Below the pieces are notes generated by a model, which was given only the letters and a program-made list of their open reading frames with translations, did no database searches and had not been told where the DNA came from. A DNA stretch of 64,000 nucleotides from Ignavibacteria bacterium (GTDB lineage Bacteria > Bacteroidota > Ignavibacteria > Kapaibacteriales > UBA4661). The position numbers were made by a program, and so were the translations under genes. Shown here piece by piece: positions 34,843 to 45,026 of this stretch. Within the stretch, counting starts at the first letter, position 1. Each line of letters starts with the position of its first letter. The DNA is taken from contig CANHDJ010000015.1 of NCBI GenBank assembly GCA_947459425.1, forward strand, positions 1-64,000, given 5' to 3'.

Positions 34843-37800
34843 ATGAATGTTCGCCCCAGAATATTTCTGCATCACGCTATCATACATTTGTTATTGGCGT
34901 TGCTCGTCGTCGGCACTGCGCCAAACCTTCGTGCGCAACTAACCCCAATGCCGCTTGATTACGGTACGGAACTGTTTCAAGATGCAAACGCATGGTTTCG
35001 CCGAGATATGCAGCAAGAAACGCAAAAGCGCTTATTGATGGTGATCGGGCGCTTTCCAACAGCAGCAGCCAGCGATCATGCTGCCTTGCTTCTTGCCGAT
35101 GCACAGTTCCGTGCCGGAGCGCAAAACCCTGACGAATACGTTCATGCGTGGCGTACCTTGGACAGTTTTGCCCTTCGTTGCCCCAATTCCCCTCTTCTCC
35201 CTTTTGCCTACGAACTCGCAGCAAACCGCCATTTGGAACGGGAGAATTACGCCGAAGCCCGCGAATTTTTTGCTAAAAGCATAGCCTCCGCCGCGCATAA
35301 TCTGGCAGTTAGAGGCGGCGATAGCGCATACGCACCGCTTTTGGCAGATGGTTTGTATTGGCAAGGTGTGTGTTATTTGCAGGATGGTGCAAGCAATCCC
35401 GCCTTTGCTGATAGCGCTCAAGCGACTTTTGAGCGCACGTCAAACCGCTATCCGCGTGGACGCTATGCTGATGACGCACTATTTTTCCTCGCTCGCTCTG
35501 CCGAACTTCGCCGACAATACGACACGGCGCTTGCCCGCTATGACCGCATTATTGCGAATTACCCACAAGGAAACGTGCGACTTGCAGCGCATATTCGCTC
35601 GGCACAAAATCATCTTCAATTTCGCCGCTCTGCACGGGCGCTTGCGGAGTTAGAATCGGCAGCAACGGTGCTGAACACAGCACAAAATCAGGCTTCCAGC
35701 GTTCAAAGTAACATTCAAAGCATTGACTCACAAAGTTATGCCGACAATGCACGGGAACAAATTTTGTATTTGCGCGGCGAGGCAAATGCCGTTGCACGGC
35801 GATTTGAAGCGGCTTTGCAGAGTTTTGAGGCACTCTTCAAACAATTCCCCCGTACCTCCTTGATGCTCAGAGCGCGTCTAGGCAAGGGTTATGCTTTGTT
35901 AAATCTGGCAGATTCCTCTGAAAGCGTTATTAACACTGCTCTTGCGGAGTATGATGCGGTGATAGATGCCGATGATTTGACCAATCCCGAATATTCTCGT
36001 TTGGCAGGAGTGGCGCGGCTTTACCGCACGATTGCGCTCAAACGCAAGGGCGAAAGTGAGACGGCTCGCAAGGAATTAAGCGCTCTGGCGGTACAGTCCG
36101 ATTTTCCCTTTCCCGCCGAAGCACTATTGGAATTGGGCGAAATTTATTACCACGATGGCAAATACGACGATGCCCGCAAAACGCTTGAACGCGCCGCCCG
36201 TGAAGCTCCCGATGCGGCAACGCAAATGCGCATCAACCTCCTTTTGGGCGAAACGGCATTGGAAGCAAAAAGTTTTGCGCTTGCGGTGCGTTCATTTGAA
36301 AGAACGGAACTCCTTTTGGCTCAAGTGCCGCTCTATGCCTTGCCTGAGCGCGACAACTATCTCACCGAAGCAGTCTTGAAGCGCGGTATGGCACTCATTG
36401 GAACAAAAGAATACCGCGATGCTATCACGCAACTGACGCGCTTTTTGAACGACAACCCGCATTCGACCGATAACTCCAACAGCGACCGCATCAATAATCA
36501 CCGTGCAGAAGCCGCTTTTTGGATTGTCGAGGCTCAATATCAAGCGGATTTGCTCCAAAATGCTGCACGAGGCTATCAAACATTTTTGACGGAATATCAG
36601 CAGAGCGAACGTGCTGAAGAAGCGCTCTACGGCTTGGGTTGGACGCAATTTCGCCTCCGGCAATTCACCGAATCGGCAGCGACCTTTACGCGGCTTTTGC
36701 GGGAATACCCCGAAAGCGGCTTTGCGCTTGATGTTCTGGCACGAAAAGGTGATGGGCTGTACATTACCAAAAATTACCGCGCCGCCGCCGAATCCTATCG
36801 CCAAGCTGCCCGCCTCAAGCCCAAGACCGAACAAGGCGAATATGCTGCATTTCAACTCGGACAATCGCTCTATCGCTTGTTGGAATACGACCAAGCACTT
36901 GAGGCAATGCGCGATTTTGCGAAAGCCTACCCATCGTCCCCATTGGCGGATGATGCGATGTACGGTGCGGCATGGACATATTTTCAACAGCGCCGATTTG
37001 ACGAAGCAGCAAAGGAACTACGGGCATTGCTCGATGCGTATCCGCAGGGTTCGGCAGCTCCACGTGCCTACTACGCGCTTGGAGACAGCTATTTCAACGG
37101 AGAAAAATACGACGCTGCCATTCAAGCATACCGCGCCGTTGCTGATATTTTCCCGCTTCATCCGCTTGCCCCCGATGCCGTCAATGCGATTCAATATTGC
37201 TATATGCTGCAAGGCAAGGAAGATTCGGCAACAGCTATTGCGGACAAATATATCAACGCCAGCCCCGGTTCGACGCTTGCACAAGAAGTGAAATTCAAAA
37301 AAGCAGAAACCTTGTTCAATTCGGGTAAATTTGTCAATGCAGCCGCAGAGTTTGAAGATTTTATCGCCAAAAACCGCCAGAACCCTCGTAATGCCGAGGC
37401 TCTCTACCAAATTGGTCGAAGCTATGCCGCCATAAACGACAGCGCAAAAGCGCTCACCGCCTTTCGCCGCGTCGAGGCAGAGTATTCGCAAAGCAATGTT
37501 GCGCCACGAGCGGCATTGGAACAGGCATTGCTCCGCCGCGAATTGGCACTGCTCCGCCGTGATAGTGCTTCGTTTTTGGCAGCCGATACAACGTTTCTGC
37601 GCGTAGAACGGCTCTACGCCGGAGACGATGCAGCTATTCGTGCTGCTTTCGAGCGGGCAAATCTCTACGAATCGCGCGGCGACACCTCCAAGGCAATTCG
37701 CTATTACCGCGAAGTAGCGGAACGCTTCAAGGGGTCGGATTATGGTGACCGCTGCCGCTATCGTGTGGCAATGTTTTTCCGGCAAAATAACCTCTTCGAT

Positions 37801-38121
37801 AGCGCTCGTGCGCAGTTGGAACAGATAGCCACTTCCCGCACAGACGAACTCGCCGCCGAAGCGCAATACCGCATCGGAGAACTCTTTGTCCGCGAGAAAA
37901 AATACGCTGAAGCGATAACAGCATTTTTGAAAAATAAAAATGGCTTCTCAGGGCTGGAAGATTGGTACACACTGGCGTTGTTGAATCTCGGTGTTTGTTA
38001 TGAAGCGCAGAAAGATGTGGAAACCGCAAAAGAAATGTACCGTCTCGTCATTGCACAGCACAGCGAGGATGATTTTGGTAAAACGGCTCAACAACGATTA
38101 GAGAAGTTAAGTAAAATGTGA
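34843..38121 (+). CDS. Large exported tetratricopeptide-repeat protein
   Basis: 1092 aa. Signal peptide 1-31 ends NLRAQ. From about residue 40 to the end there are many 34-residue helical repeats with the TPR pattern, e.g. AAFQLGQSLYRLLEYDQAL, ALYQIGRSYAAINDSAKAL and ALGDSYFNGEKYDAAI (residues W/L-G-Y-A-F-A-P at the usual places). Such proteins are periplasmic scaffolds; the repeats resemble those of BamD/YbgF-like and Bacteroidota gliding-linked proteins. No enzymatic domain. The partner is unknown. It is bordered on the right by the DnaA-box-rich gap. Confidence 0.85.
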   Translation: MNVRPRIFLHHAIIHLLLALLVVGTAPNLRAQLTPMPLDYGTELFQDANAWFRRDMQQETQKRLLMVIGRFPTAAASDHAALLLADAQFRAGAQNPDEYVHAWRTLDSFALRCPNSPLLPFAYELAANRHLERENYAEAREFFAKSIASAAHNLAVRGGDSAYAPLLADGLYWQGVCYLQDGASNPAFADSAQATFERTSNRYPRGRYADDALFFLARSAELRRQYDTALARYDRIIANYPQGNVRLAAHIRSAQNHLQFRRSARALAELESAATVLNTAQNQASSVQSNIQSIDSQSYADNAREQILYLRGEANAVARRFEAALQSFEALFKQFPRTSLMLRARLGKGYALLNLADSSESVINTALAEYDAVIDADDLTNPEYSRLAGVARLYRTIALKRKGESETARKELSALAVQSDFPFPAEALLELGEIYYHDGKYDDARKTLERAAREAPDAATQMRINLLLGETALEAKSFALAVRSFERTELLLAQVPLYALPERDNYLTEAVLKRGMALIGTKEYRDAITQLTRFLNDNPHSTDNSNSDRINNHRAEAAFWIVEAQYQADLLQNAARGYQTFLTEYQQSERAEEALYGLGWTQFRLRQFTESAATFTRLLREYPESGFALDVLARKGDGLYITKNYRAAAESYRQAARLKPKTEQGEYAAFQLGQSLYRLLEYDQALEAMRDFAKAYPSSPLADDAMYGAAWTYFQQRRFDEAAKELRALLDAYPQGSAAPRAYYALGDSYFNGEKYDAAIQAYRAVADIFPLHPLAPDAVNAIQYCYMLQGKEDSATAIADKYINASPGSTLAQEVKFKKAETLFNSGKFVNAAAEFEDFIAKNRQNPRNAEALYQIGRSYAAINDSAKALTAFRRVEAEYSQSNVAPRAALEQALLRRELALLRRDSASFLAADTTFLRVERLYAGDDAAIRAAFERANLYESRGDTSKAIRYYREVAERFKGSDYGDRCRYRVAMFFRQNNLFDSARAQLEQIATSRTDELAAEAQYRIGELFVREKKYAEAITAFLKNKNGFSGLEDWYTLALLNLGVCYEAQKDVETAKEMYRLVIAQHSEDDFGKTAQQRLEKLSKM

Positions 38122-38205
38122 GTATTATGTACGTTGCTCACTATCTTTAGTGTATTGTCTGTTTGTTTTAAATACTCTATAAATCCACAGTTATAGATGG
38201 GGAAA

Positions 38206-38619
38206 TGTGGATAATTGAAGAATGATTATCTTCAAAGCCTTATTATTCCTTGCGTTCTTGGGAATATTGTCTTTGAAATTTACTCTGTATAAATCCTGAA
38301 TAACCTTCCTGATATGCACAGAAGCGGGGATAACATCGTTACGGGGAAAAGAGTGTGGGTATTACTTCGTGTTTTCACCAGAACTCTCCCCGCCGTTTCC
38401 CCGAAGGTTTTGCACAGATGAGGAAAATATGTGGAAAACTTTAACGAAAAATGCAACGTGGAAAAGTCATCTTGGTTATTACCATACTTGACACTATTTT
38501 GCAATAAACAACAATGCTTCCCGATTGCATAAAACCTCGTGTTGCTGACTATTATGCTTTGGTAATATTACCCACATCGTTTTCCCCAATATTCCACTTT
38601 TTGCACAGACTTTTCCACA
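38206..38619. other. DnaA-box cluster, candidate replication origin
   Basis: The 531-bp gap between the TPR gene and the dipeptidase gene has five exact matches to TTWTNCACA on either strand: 38206-38214 (TTATCCACA), 38408-38416, 38430-38438, 38599-38607 and 38611-38619. Two one-mismatch sites lie at 38312-38320 and 38457-38465. By a simple uniform-base estimate about 0.03 would be expected in this length. The region is AT-rich and has no ORF. Against an origin: genes converge on this point (plus on the left, minus on the right), and dnaA, dnaN and gidA are not adjacent. It may be oriC, a DnaA-titration locus, or chance in AT-rich DNA. Confidence 0.45.
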
Positions 38620-38652
38620 AAACCTTCTTTTTTACACTTTTTCCCCTTTGTT

Positions 38653-40020
38653 ATGAGTAATCTTCTGACCTATCTCGAACAACAGCAATCCGCTCATCTC
38701 GAAGAATTACAAGACTTCCTCAAAATTCCCAGCATCAGTACCGACCCCGCACACAAAGGCGATGTCTTGCGTTGCGCAGAGTGGGTGCAGAACTCTATGA
38801 AATCCATTGGCTTGGAAAATATTCAAATTTTTCCCACCGACGGGCATCCTGTTGTTTATGGCGAGCATCTTCACGCCGGAAAGGATGCGCCGACGGTGCT
38901 GTTTTATGGGCATTACGACGTACAACCCGTTGACCCGCTTCACCTTTGGACGAACAAGCCTTTTGAGCCAACGGTGCGGGATGGAAAAATTTATGCTCGT
39001 GGGGCGGTTGATGACAAAGGGCAGGTCTTTATGCAACTTAAAAGCCTCGAAGCACATTTGAAAACAAGCGGTAAACTGCCTGTCAACGTTAAGGTCTTGA
39101 TTGAAGGCGAAGAAGAAATCGGTAGTGTGAATTTAGAATCATTTCTCCGCAAACACGCATCAATGCTTGCTGCTGACACGGTGTTAATATCCGATACCGC
39201 TATGTTTGCCGATGAAGTACCGTCGCTTTGTTATGGTTTGCGCGGGTTGTGTTATATGGAAGTTACTGTTACCGGACCTAATCGTGACTTACACTCTGGC
39301 GTATTTGGTGGCGCGGTGGCGAATCCCGCGAATGCATTGGCGAAGATTATTGCACAACTGACCGATGAATATGGGCGCATCACCATTCCCGGTTTCTATG
39401 ATGATGTGCTGCCGCTCACGCCCGAAGAGCGCGAAGAATATCGCCAGCTTCCGCACGACGAGGCTGCATACTGCAAAGAGTTGAATATTCCTGCTACCGA
39501 CGGTGAATTTGGCTATGGCACGTTAGAAAAAACATCTGCCCGTCCGACGTTGGATGTGAACGGCATTTGGGGCGGTTTTATGGGCGAGGGCGCTAAAACA
39601 GTGCTTCCCGGCAAGGCATCGGCGAAAATTTCTATGCGACTTGTCCCGAATCAAAATACGGATGATATTGCAAAAAAATTCGCAGCATACATTGAGCGTA
39701 TTGCTCCGCCGACGGTTCGAGTCGAAGTGACGAATCTGCATGGCGGCAATCCCGCCATTACGCCCACCGATAGCAAGGGTGTTCGTGCTGCGCTTAGGGC
39801 AATGGAGCGTGCTTTTGGTAAAAAGCCCTTTTTAACCCGTGAAGGCGGCTCCATTCCGATTGTTCTGCTCTTTCAAACTATTTTGAATGCACCGGTTGTC
39901 CTGATGGGAATGGGCTTAAACACGGAAAATCTTCATTCGCCCGATGAGCATTTTACGTTGAAGAATTTTTATCGTGGAATTATTGCTTCCGCATTTTTTT
40001 ACGATGAATTGGCGAAATGA
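38653..40020 (+). CDS. M20/M25/M40-family dipeptidase
   Basis: 455 aa, no signal peptide. Metal and catalytic residues: His and Asp in LFYGHYDVQPVDP, the bridging Asp in YARGAVDDKGQ, Glu-Glu in EGEEEIGSVNLE, Asp in LISDTAMF, and a late His in TENLHSPDEHF. The insert domain for dimerisation (about 195-360) is present. It is a cytoplasmic zinc peptidase of the CNDP/PepV-like group, cleaving dipeptides. The start ATG at 38653 follows an AT-rich, pyrimidine-rich leader with no Shine-Dalgarno. Confidence 0.93.
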   Translation: MSNLLTYLEQQQSAHLEELQDFLKIPSISTDPAHKGDVLRCAEWVQNSMKSIGLENIQIFPTDGHPVVYGEHLHAGKDAPTVLFYGHYDVQPVDPLHLWTNKPFEPTVRDGKIYARGAVDDKGQVFMQLKSLEAHLKTSGKLPVNVKVLIEGEEEIGSVNLESFLRKHASMLAADTVLISDTAMFADEVPSLCYGLRGLCYMEVTVTGPNRDLHSGVFGGAVANPANALAKIIAQLTDEYGRITIPGFYDDVLPLTPEEREEYRQLPHDEAAYCKELNIPATDGEFGYGTLEKTSARPTLDVNGIWGGFMGEGAKTVLPGKASAKISMRLVPNQNTDDIAKKFAAYIERIAPPTVRVEVTNLHGGNPAITPTDSKGVRAALRAMERAFGKKPFLTREGGSIPIVLLFQTILNAPVVLMGMGLNTENLHSPDEHFTLKNFYRGIIASAFFYDELAK

Positions 40021-43163: not shown

Positions 43164-45026
43164 TCAGCGAATTGGCAACGCCGTCGCACCAAAAAGGTTG
43201 ATAATAGCTTTGTCCAGTTCGTGGAGTTCTGCCGATGTTTGCTTCTTGGGAGTGTGTGCTTCTGAGGTATGCTCTGCTCCGTTCGGTTCTAGAGGTGGCA
43301 CGTAGGATGGGGAAAATTCGTCGAAAAGCGAGGTTGCCTTTTGACTGGAAGCACCTCGTACGATGACGCGCACTTCTCCGCCCAGTGCCGCACTCAAGAT
43401 TTCTCCAATCTGTGTCTGTTTTTCGAGAATTTTATTAGCAACAAATTCTTGTTCGCAATGGCAATGCAATTCGCCGTCTCGACATTCTATGCGCACCATT
43501 TCACGCTCTTGAAGCGATCCTTTTATCGCAGCATCAAGTATTTCCGCGCTAGTGATAACCCCTCGCCATTCGTTATTCAACTCATCTGCCGGAACGATGC
43601 GCTTTGGTACTGGAAGGGCTGGAGTTTTGGGTAGAGTTTCGCTGCGAGTTTCCGACGTATTTTCCCCACCGGGTATTGATTTTTCCACAGGTTTTTCCAC
43701 AGTGTGTATTAGCTGTGGAAAACTCTGCTCTTTGGCTATGATTGTTTGTGTGAGAGAGGTGCTTGAAGGCGCTATTGGTACTTGCGTTTGAGGTACGATT
43801 TTGGGGGGCTGCGTAGTCGGATTGGTGCTGTAAAAAGCACTTAATTCTCCCCCAGACTCAACTTTTTTTTTTAGCTCGGCAAGTTCAGCGAGAAGCTCCG
43901 AAAGCTGAATGGCGGAATCAAGTTTCGCCATTTGCACGAGCGCAAATTCAAACCGCAAGCGTGGCTGTGGCGCAAAGCGGAGAGCCTGTTCGGTGTTCAT
44001 AATAATCGTCATATATTGCAGCACATCTTCTTGGGTAAAGTGCTGTGCCTCTGCCAAATACTGTTCGCGGTGCAGCTTGGAAGCCTCAATGAGTGCGGCG
44101 TTTTGGGTTGCCAGCACCGTGAGCAGATTGCGGAAATGTTCGGCAAGTCCATGAAGACATTCTTGCAAATCATAGCCACGCATAAAGACTTCACGGGCAA
44201 AATCAAGAATCGTTGCCACGTCATGTTCGCGGATAGCGCGTCCCAAGGTGAAGTAAAATTCGGTATCAATGAGGTTTAATGCCTCGTTTACTCGTGCGTA
44301 CTCAACGGTGCGCCCACAAAAGGCGATAACTTGGTCGAAAATACTCTGCGAATCTCGCATCGAACCATCACCTTTTTTGCCAATGACTGCCAGCGATTCA
44401 TCGTCAATCGTGATACCCTCTTGTGTGGCGATATAGCGGAGTTGCGCAGCAATTTCGTCTATCTGCATCCGCCGAAAATCAAAGCGCTGGCAACGGCTTA
44501 AAATCGTTGCCGGGACTTTATGCGGTTCTGTCGTAGCGAAAACAAATAGCAAATGGCGCGGTGGCTCCTCCAACGTCTTCAAAAGCGCGTTAAACGCTGA
44601 CGTGGAAAGCATATGTACCTCGTCAATGATGTACATTTTATAGTCCCCTTTGATGGGCGGATATTTCGCATTCTCGCGGAGTTTGCGAATATCGTCCACG
44701 CTATTATTCGATGCACCGTCAATTTCTATCACATCCATTGAGCGCCCTGTGTTTATTTCGGTGCAAGAGGCACAGATGTTGCAGGGTTCAAAATCATCGC
44801 TCGGATTCTCACAATTCACCGCTTTTGCCAAAATACGGGCTGTGGTGGTCTTGCCTACGCCGCGCGGACCATTAAAAATGTAGGCATGATGGATGCGCCC
44901 CGACTGGACGGCGTTACGCAGCGTTCTGGTAACGTGTTCCTGTCCGACAACATCGGTAAAACGCTGTGGTCGCCATTTGCGGGCGGTGACGATGTATTGT
45001 TCTTGGGAGGCGGTGTGGTCGGGCAT
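43164..45026 (-). CDS. dnaX: DNA polymerase III subunit gamma/tau
   Basis: 620 aa. Clamp-loader AAA+ ATPase: Walker A GPRGVGKT (53-60), zinc-binding Cys72, Cys82, Cys85 and Cys88, Walker B IIDEVHML (133-140), and the sensor/arginine-finger region ILSRCQRF. Domain III runs to about 370, followed by a Ser/Pro/Thr/Gln-rich linker and a C-terminal tau-like domain (about 490-590). It drives loading of the sliding clamp. Bases 43681-43722, within the linker, contain three DnaA boxes. No A-rich slippery heptamer typical of gamma frameshifting was noticed. Confidence 0.95.
   Translation of the reverse strand: MPDHTASQEQYIVTARKWRPQRFTDVVGQEHVTRTLRNAVQSGRIHHAYIFNGPRGVGKTTTARILAKAVNCENPSDDFEPCNICASCTEINTGRSMDVIEIDGASNNSVDDIRKLRENAKYPPIKGDYKMYIIDEVHMLSTSAFNALLKTLEEPPRHLLFVFATTEPHKVPATILSRCQRFDFRRMQIDEIAAQLRYIATQEGITIDDESLAVIGKKGDGSMRDSQSIFDQVIAFCGRTVEYARVNEALNLIDTEFYFTLGRAIREHDVATILDFAREVFMRGYDLQECLHGLAEHFRNLLTVLATQNAALIEASKLHREQYLAEAQHFTQEDVLQYMTIIMNTEQALRFAPQPRLRFEFALVQMAKLDSAIQLSELLAELAELKKKVESGGELSAFYSTNPTTQPPKIVPQTQVPIAPSSTSLTQTIIAKEQSFPQLIHTVEKPVEKSIPGGENTSETRSETLPKTPALPVPKRIVPADELNNEWRGVITSAEILDAAIKGSLQEREMVRIECRDGELHCHCEQEFVANKILEKQTQIGEILSAALGGEVRVIVRGASSQKATSLFDEFSPSYVPPLEPNGAEHTSEAHTPKKQTSAELHELDKAIINLFGATALPIR
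43681..43722. promoter_or_regulatory. Three DnaA boxes inside dnaX
   Basis: TTTTCCACA at 43681-43689 and 43693-43701 and its reverse complement at 43714-43722 lie within 42 bp of the linker coding region (VEKPVEK). The repeat could come from codon usage of a repeated peptide, but the third copy is on the other strand and not part of that repeat. Confidence 0.45.

Follow-up and report, generated by a model that had tools for sequence, protein, structure and literature searches.

A gene-free gap at positions 38122–38652 of the window, the 64-kb stretch of DNA analysed here, carries a cluster of DnaA boxes beside a peptidase gene and raises the question of whether replication of this chromosome starts there or whether the boxes serve another role. 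The initial annotation had offered two readings, an origin or a DnaA-titration locus. Our data support the origin, and we put at about 90% the probability that chromosome replication starts in this gap, which would make it an oriC away from dnaA. The observations behind this reading are the boxes themselves, the conservation of their order and spacing, conservation of the element despite a change of neighbouring gene, and GC-skew minima at or near it in relatives.

A cluster of DnaA boxes in a gene-free gap

The window is contig C15 of assembly G000, which comprises 3,405,420 bases (3.4 Mb) in 93 contigs. Five exact TTWTNCACA sites lie in the gap, at 38206(-), 38408(+), 38430(-), 38599(+) and 38611(+), spanning 414 bp, and our recount thus agrees with the five sites within about 415 bp first described. 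The whole window holds 16 exact sites versus 7.5 expected from shuffles. Since the assembly contains 433 exact boxes, one per 7.9 kb, 0.07 would be expected in the gap, so the earlier uniform-base estimate of about 0.03 was of the right order; the whole G000 genome would be expected to yield about 1e-4 clusters as dense as five boxes in 414 bp. The gap is therefore an intergenic DnaA-box cluster beyond chance. It also contains eight one-mismatch boxes, where only two had been counted, and three of these (38419, 38457 and 38580) line up with boxes or near-boxes in relatives. As previously remarked, the gap is AT-rich (63% versus 52% for the window) and unusually long, ranking third in the window by a mechanical ORF list. 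A scan for promoters and terminators gave no excess over shuffles, and an Rfam scan gave a single match with a score far under its threshold. The features of the locus are as follows.

34843–38121, + strand: gene for a TPR protein of 1092 aa; left neighbour of the gap only in the G000 window and G002
38122–38652, no strand: predicted oriC, the gene-free gap between the TPR-protein and M20 dipeptidase genes, with five exact boxes, conservation in five distinct species and a skew minimum (38754) close by
38140–38199, no strand: putative DNA-unwinding element, the 60-bp segment of lowest stability within the gap in a nearest-neighbour scan
38165–38345, + strand: left module, kept also in G004 and G005 (away from M20) and in G009, found by BLASTN and profile search
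38206–38214, - strand: DnaA box TTATCCACA of the left module, exact; relatives have a one-mismatch box at the same place
38408–38416, + strand: DnaA box TTTTGCACA of the core, exact, in register in relatives
38419–38427, - strand: one-mismatch box TTTTCCTCA of the core, in register in relatives
38430–38438, - strand: DnaA box TTTTCCACA of the core, exact, identical across all species compared
38457–38465, - strand: one-mismatch box TTTTCCACG of the core, in register in relatives
38462–38480, + strand: conserved non-box block AAAAGTCATCTTGGTTATT beside the core, exact or with a one-letter variant in G000–G003, G006 and G007
38580–38588, + strand: one-mismatch box TTTTCCCCA; an exact TTTTCCACA in G001, G006, G007 and G003
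38599–38607, + strand: DnaA box TTTTGCACA of the right tandem triple, exact, in register in relatives
38611–38619, + strand: DnaA box TTTTCCACA of the right tandem triple, exact, identical across all species compared
38653–40020, + strand: M20-family dipeptidase gene, the constant neighbour in six of the eight genus members

To the right of the M20 gene follow genes for an NAD(P)-binding protein and RNase Z, then prfA, dnaX (5 kb right of the gap) and isocitrate lyase, and the left side of the window also contains genes for malate synthase and a TsaC/Sua5 protein. Named relatives of the M20 protein bear the labels Candidatus Kapaibacterium, Ignavibacteria UBA lines and an OPB56-type Chlorobiota bin, on which basis the genome probably belongs to the Kapabacteria group. 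An adjacent indicator gene (dnaA, dnaN, gidA or hemE) is a frequent but not obligatory mark of oriC, and neither dnaA nor gidA adjoins the gap, as first noted; in G000 they are found on contigs C63 and C4, respectively. Their absence next door is common, because among 568 chromosomes oriC was both dnaA-adjacent and near the skew switch in only 60.2% (PMC2275245).

Box order and spacing are conserved within the genus

We compared eight genomes of the genus (G000–G007) and found the cluster upstream of the M20 gene in six of them (G000, G001, G002, G003, G006 and G007). G000 and G002 come close to being one species, and alignment statistics were taken over five distinct species, among which pairwise identity over the gap is 47–74%. 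Invariant columns make up 59 of 72 box columns (82%) versus 82 of the 459 other gap columns (18%), a difference with a Fisher value of 1e-26 for columns that are not fully independent. The sites in register are 38408(+), 38419(-, weak), 38430(-), 38457(-, weak), 38580(+), 38599(+) and 38611(+); that at 38580 is weak in G000 and exact in four relatives, and the left site at 38206 is a one-mismatch box in relatives. Spacing is kept as well, at 22 bp for the convergent pair and 18–19 and 12 bp for the right tandem triple. Adjoining the core, the non-box block TCATCTTGGTTATT is as conserved as the boxes, with 18 of 20 columns conserved from 38462. The least stable 60 bp lie just outside the left box in G000; in G002, G001 and G003 they occupy that flank too, but in G006 and G007 they do not. 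The comparison of the gap in relatives that had been proposed as a check thus shows boxes, order and spacing conserved while the rest of the gap diverged, with gene order around the element scrambled among G000, G003, G006 and G007 and the left module found also in G004, G005 and G009.

GC skew changes sign at the element

Skew was read contig by contig, and for G000, with its 93 contigs, it is informative at contig scale and not chromosome-wide. Cumulative GC skew in the window reaches its minimum at 38754, about 340 bp from the centre of the cluster, at contig scale the outcome that had been named beforehand, for the full chromosome, as support for oriC. The V formed with 20-kb arms has an amplitude of 489, no larger than others in the same genome (717 on C1, 489 on C2), so it proves little alone and we dropped it as stand-alone proof. 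In the relatives, a strong V (1076) sits on the element in G003 (C172), and minima fall at the element in G009 (30438, boxes from 30700) and G002 (1405, boxes at 1544–1949). At contig scale the element thus lies at the cumulative minimum in the window, G003, G009 and G002. Minima are also at the element in G006 and G001, where the contigs end and only the sign counts, and G007 has a weak local dip with no clear minimum. All ten arms of at least 19 kb flanking the M20-linked element carry the sign expected of an origin; about nine of these are independent, because G000-left and G002-right are homologous.

Gene directions converge at the gap, as had been reported, with 20 plus and 6 minus to the left and 4 plus and 10 minus to the right among the longer ORFs of the window. 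This had been taken as a terminus pattern and an argument against an origin. Directions converge in the window but diverge at the element in G007 (18 plus and 33 minus to the left, 21 plus and 4 minus to the right), gene orientation around the element varies from species to species, and the objection therefore carries little weight. Moreover, genes of both orientations, in the window as in G003, show an upward shift of third-codon-position skew across the element, and since both shift in the same sense, the skew change is not a by-product of gene direction.

The element is conserved apart from the M20 gene

In G004 and G005 the M20 gene is kept without an upstream box cluster. With the gap of the window as the BLASTN query, the left module was found elsewhere, at G004:C7:23145-23178 (E 5.6e-5 in the sequences searched) and G005:C2:188-223 (E 4.6e-6, likewise), the alignment extending over some 190 bp, and in both genomes it is no more than about 4 kb from the cumulative-skew minimum (26432 and 3587, respectively) of the stretch read. 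Because the left half persists away from M20 in these genomes, the conserved unit is the element itself, which keeps its identity apart from M20, and a promoter of M20 does not explain it.

We built a left-module profile on six members of the genus; outside its training set, it matched in G009, of another genus in the same family, upstream of M20 (E 6.7e-7). It also matched G012, of another family in the same order, at 126.3 kb (E 0.001), a weak and partly box-driven match. G012 is a complete genome in one contig of 2.19 Mb, and the matched spot is beside gidA (123.3–125.1 kb), which a rmlD-like gene adjoins. Skew sampled along this genome stays below zero, except for one sample near zero, over the arc that starts at about 1.5 Mb and runs through the contig ends to about 0.1 Mb, and it is mostly above zero between about 0.2 and 1.4 Mb; within the first 240 kb the minimum is at 139.9 kb. 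Since dnaA lies at 725 kb, far from the minimum near 140 kb, a closed genome of the order also seems to have its oriC separate from dnaA.

DnaA-box clusters at other loci

Within dnaX (43164–45026, minus strand), three exact boxes occur at window positions 43681–43722, in the linker part of the gene. Two or three boxes are also present at this locus in G001, G002, G003, G006 and G007, and none in G004 and G005; they could reflect DnaA-dependent control or titration, or codon coincidence. On G000:C63 (L032:8136-8518), five exact boxes lie ahead of dnaA and at its start, an arrangement common to several genus members that probably serves autoregulation. About 2.5 kb from rmlD, at G000:C20:33718-33764 (L334:13718-13764), three boxes form a cluster similar to the origin core but on the other strand, with no skew switch in the 20 kb read. 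The rmlD gene directly downstream of M20 in G009, together with the sequence just beyond it, holds nine exact boxes over 770 bp (G009:C333:32775-33545; L049:12775-13545), and six of the nine are in coding sequence. The rmlD genes of G004 and G005 have box clusters in and beyond the gene and were rejected as the origins of these genomes, as no skew switch accompanies the boxes.

An array of seven to nine boxes with a 12-bp period lies in a THUMP-like methyltransferase ORF in G005:C2 (L347:3894-4010) and G004:C7:26731-26835 (L344:6731-6835). It encodes in-frame repeats of the YVENHVEK type and is about 300 bp from the cumulative-skew minimum. At G005:C102:105704-105868 (L350:704-868), about ten TTTTCCACA boxes, arranged as 33-bp repeats, immediately precede a chemotaxis-receptor-like ORF. 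Further origin candidates were discarded: the box clusters on G004:C12 and G005:C44 had no supporting skew switch, skew was monotonic at the box pair at G018:C45:58223, and a core-like match at G037:C13:19575 lies within an ORF and not at a skew minimum. Because box clusters occur at these other loci, they cannot define the origin alone, and it is conservation together with skew that defines it.

Alternative explanations

The clusters at dnaX, rmlD and C20 bear directly on whether the gap might be a DnaA-titration or -reactivation locus of the datA/DARS kind, near the origin but not itself the origin, as they show that box clusters in this genus need not be origins. We consider this unlikely for the gap, which holds the densest and most conserved cluster and with which skew minima coincide in several relatives, something a titration site does not predict; no rival cluster examined lies at the skew switch of its own contig. 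Quite unlikely, too, is an origin at the dnaA locus, with the gap in a secondary role. The box cluster upstream of dnaA in several genus members would fit it, as would the origin of Melioribacter roseus, an Ignavibacteria relative, which was placed between dnaA and dnaN (PMC3534657). However, C63 shows no skew switch at dnaA, with both sides positive, and the cluster there was ruled out as the origin on this ground; none is clear in the part of G007:C96 that was read, the complete G012 genome has dnaA far from its skew minimum, and the dnaA-upstream cluster fits autoregulation.

A role for the gap in regulating the M20 dipeptidase gene, with DnaA or another protein binding there, would account for its position upstream of M20 in G009 as well as in six members of the genus. 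This role is very improbable, as the left module of G004 and G005 persists away from M20 while their M20 genes are without it, and the M20 genes of more distant families have no upstream boxes.

A proposed origin away from dnaA

If the gap is oriC, as we favour, initiation would proceed as follows. The DnaA of G000 is intact and carries RDHTTV, the motif of the DnaA box-binding domain. Encoded on another contig, it would bind the left box, the convergent core boxes and the tandem boxes on the right and assemble into an oligomer, upon which an AT-rich flank, most likely 38140–38199, would melt and helicase loading would lead to bidirectional replication. The element is of a real but ordinary kind in an unusual place, beside a peptidase gene and far from dnaA. 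More tentatively, and less probably than not, the origin in this genus may be a portable element whose sequence is kept as its neighbours change. It would in G004 and G005 be joined by the 12-bp-periodic array of seven to nine boxes inside the methyltransferase gene (an in-frame four-residue repeat, YVENHVEK...), placing origin or titration DNA within coding sequence.

Our literature search found no paper pairing Kapabacteria with "replication origin". For an uncultured family of Kapabacteria, the gap provides a predicted origin sequence that is both specific and conserved, and it indicates that replication there does not start at dnaA. It may be used for orienting fragmented genomes, for obtaining growth rates from coverage and for studying how neighbours change while DnaA-box geometry is kept.

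Comparison with known systems

The datA and DARS loci of E. coli are clustered DnaA boxes away from dnaA. Compared by description, the gap likewise clusters boxes away from dnaA, but its cluster sits at the skew minimum and not apart from the origin. The basal unwinding system consists of tandem boxes, a short spacer and at least three DnaA-trios (PMC8287927). Similar to it, the gap has tandem boxes 3 bp apart (38599 and 38611) followed by a pyrimidine-rich tract that loosely fits the NAN-repeat rule, whereas by eye this tract has no convincing trio repeat, it is not conserved base by base, and DNA stability is lowest on the opposite flank. Like the gap, the predicted oriC of M. roseus (PMC3534657), from a related class, combines a DnaA-box cluster with a skew transition, but it lies between dnaA and dnaN, whereas the gap and dnaA are on different contigs. 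Finally, although dnaA and gidA are not adjacent and its constant neighbour is an M20 dipeptidase gene, the gap corresponds to the oriC of Ori-Finder/DoriC (PMC2275245) in being an AT-rich, intergenic DnaA-box cluster at a GC-skew minimum that is conserved among relatives.
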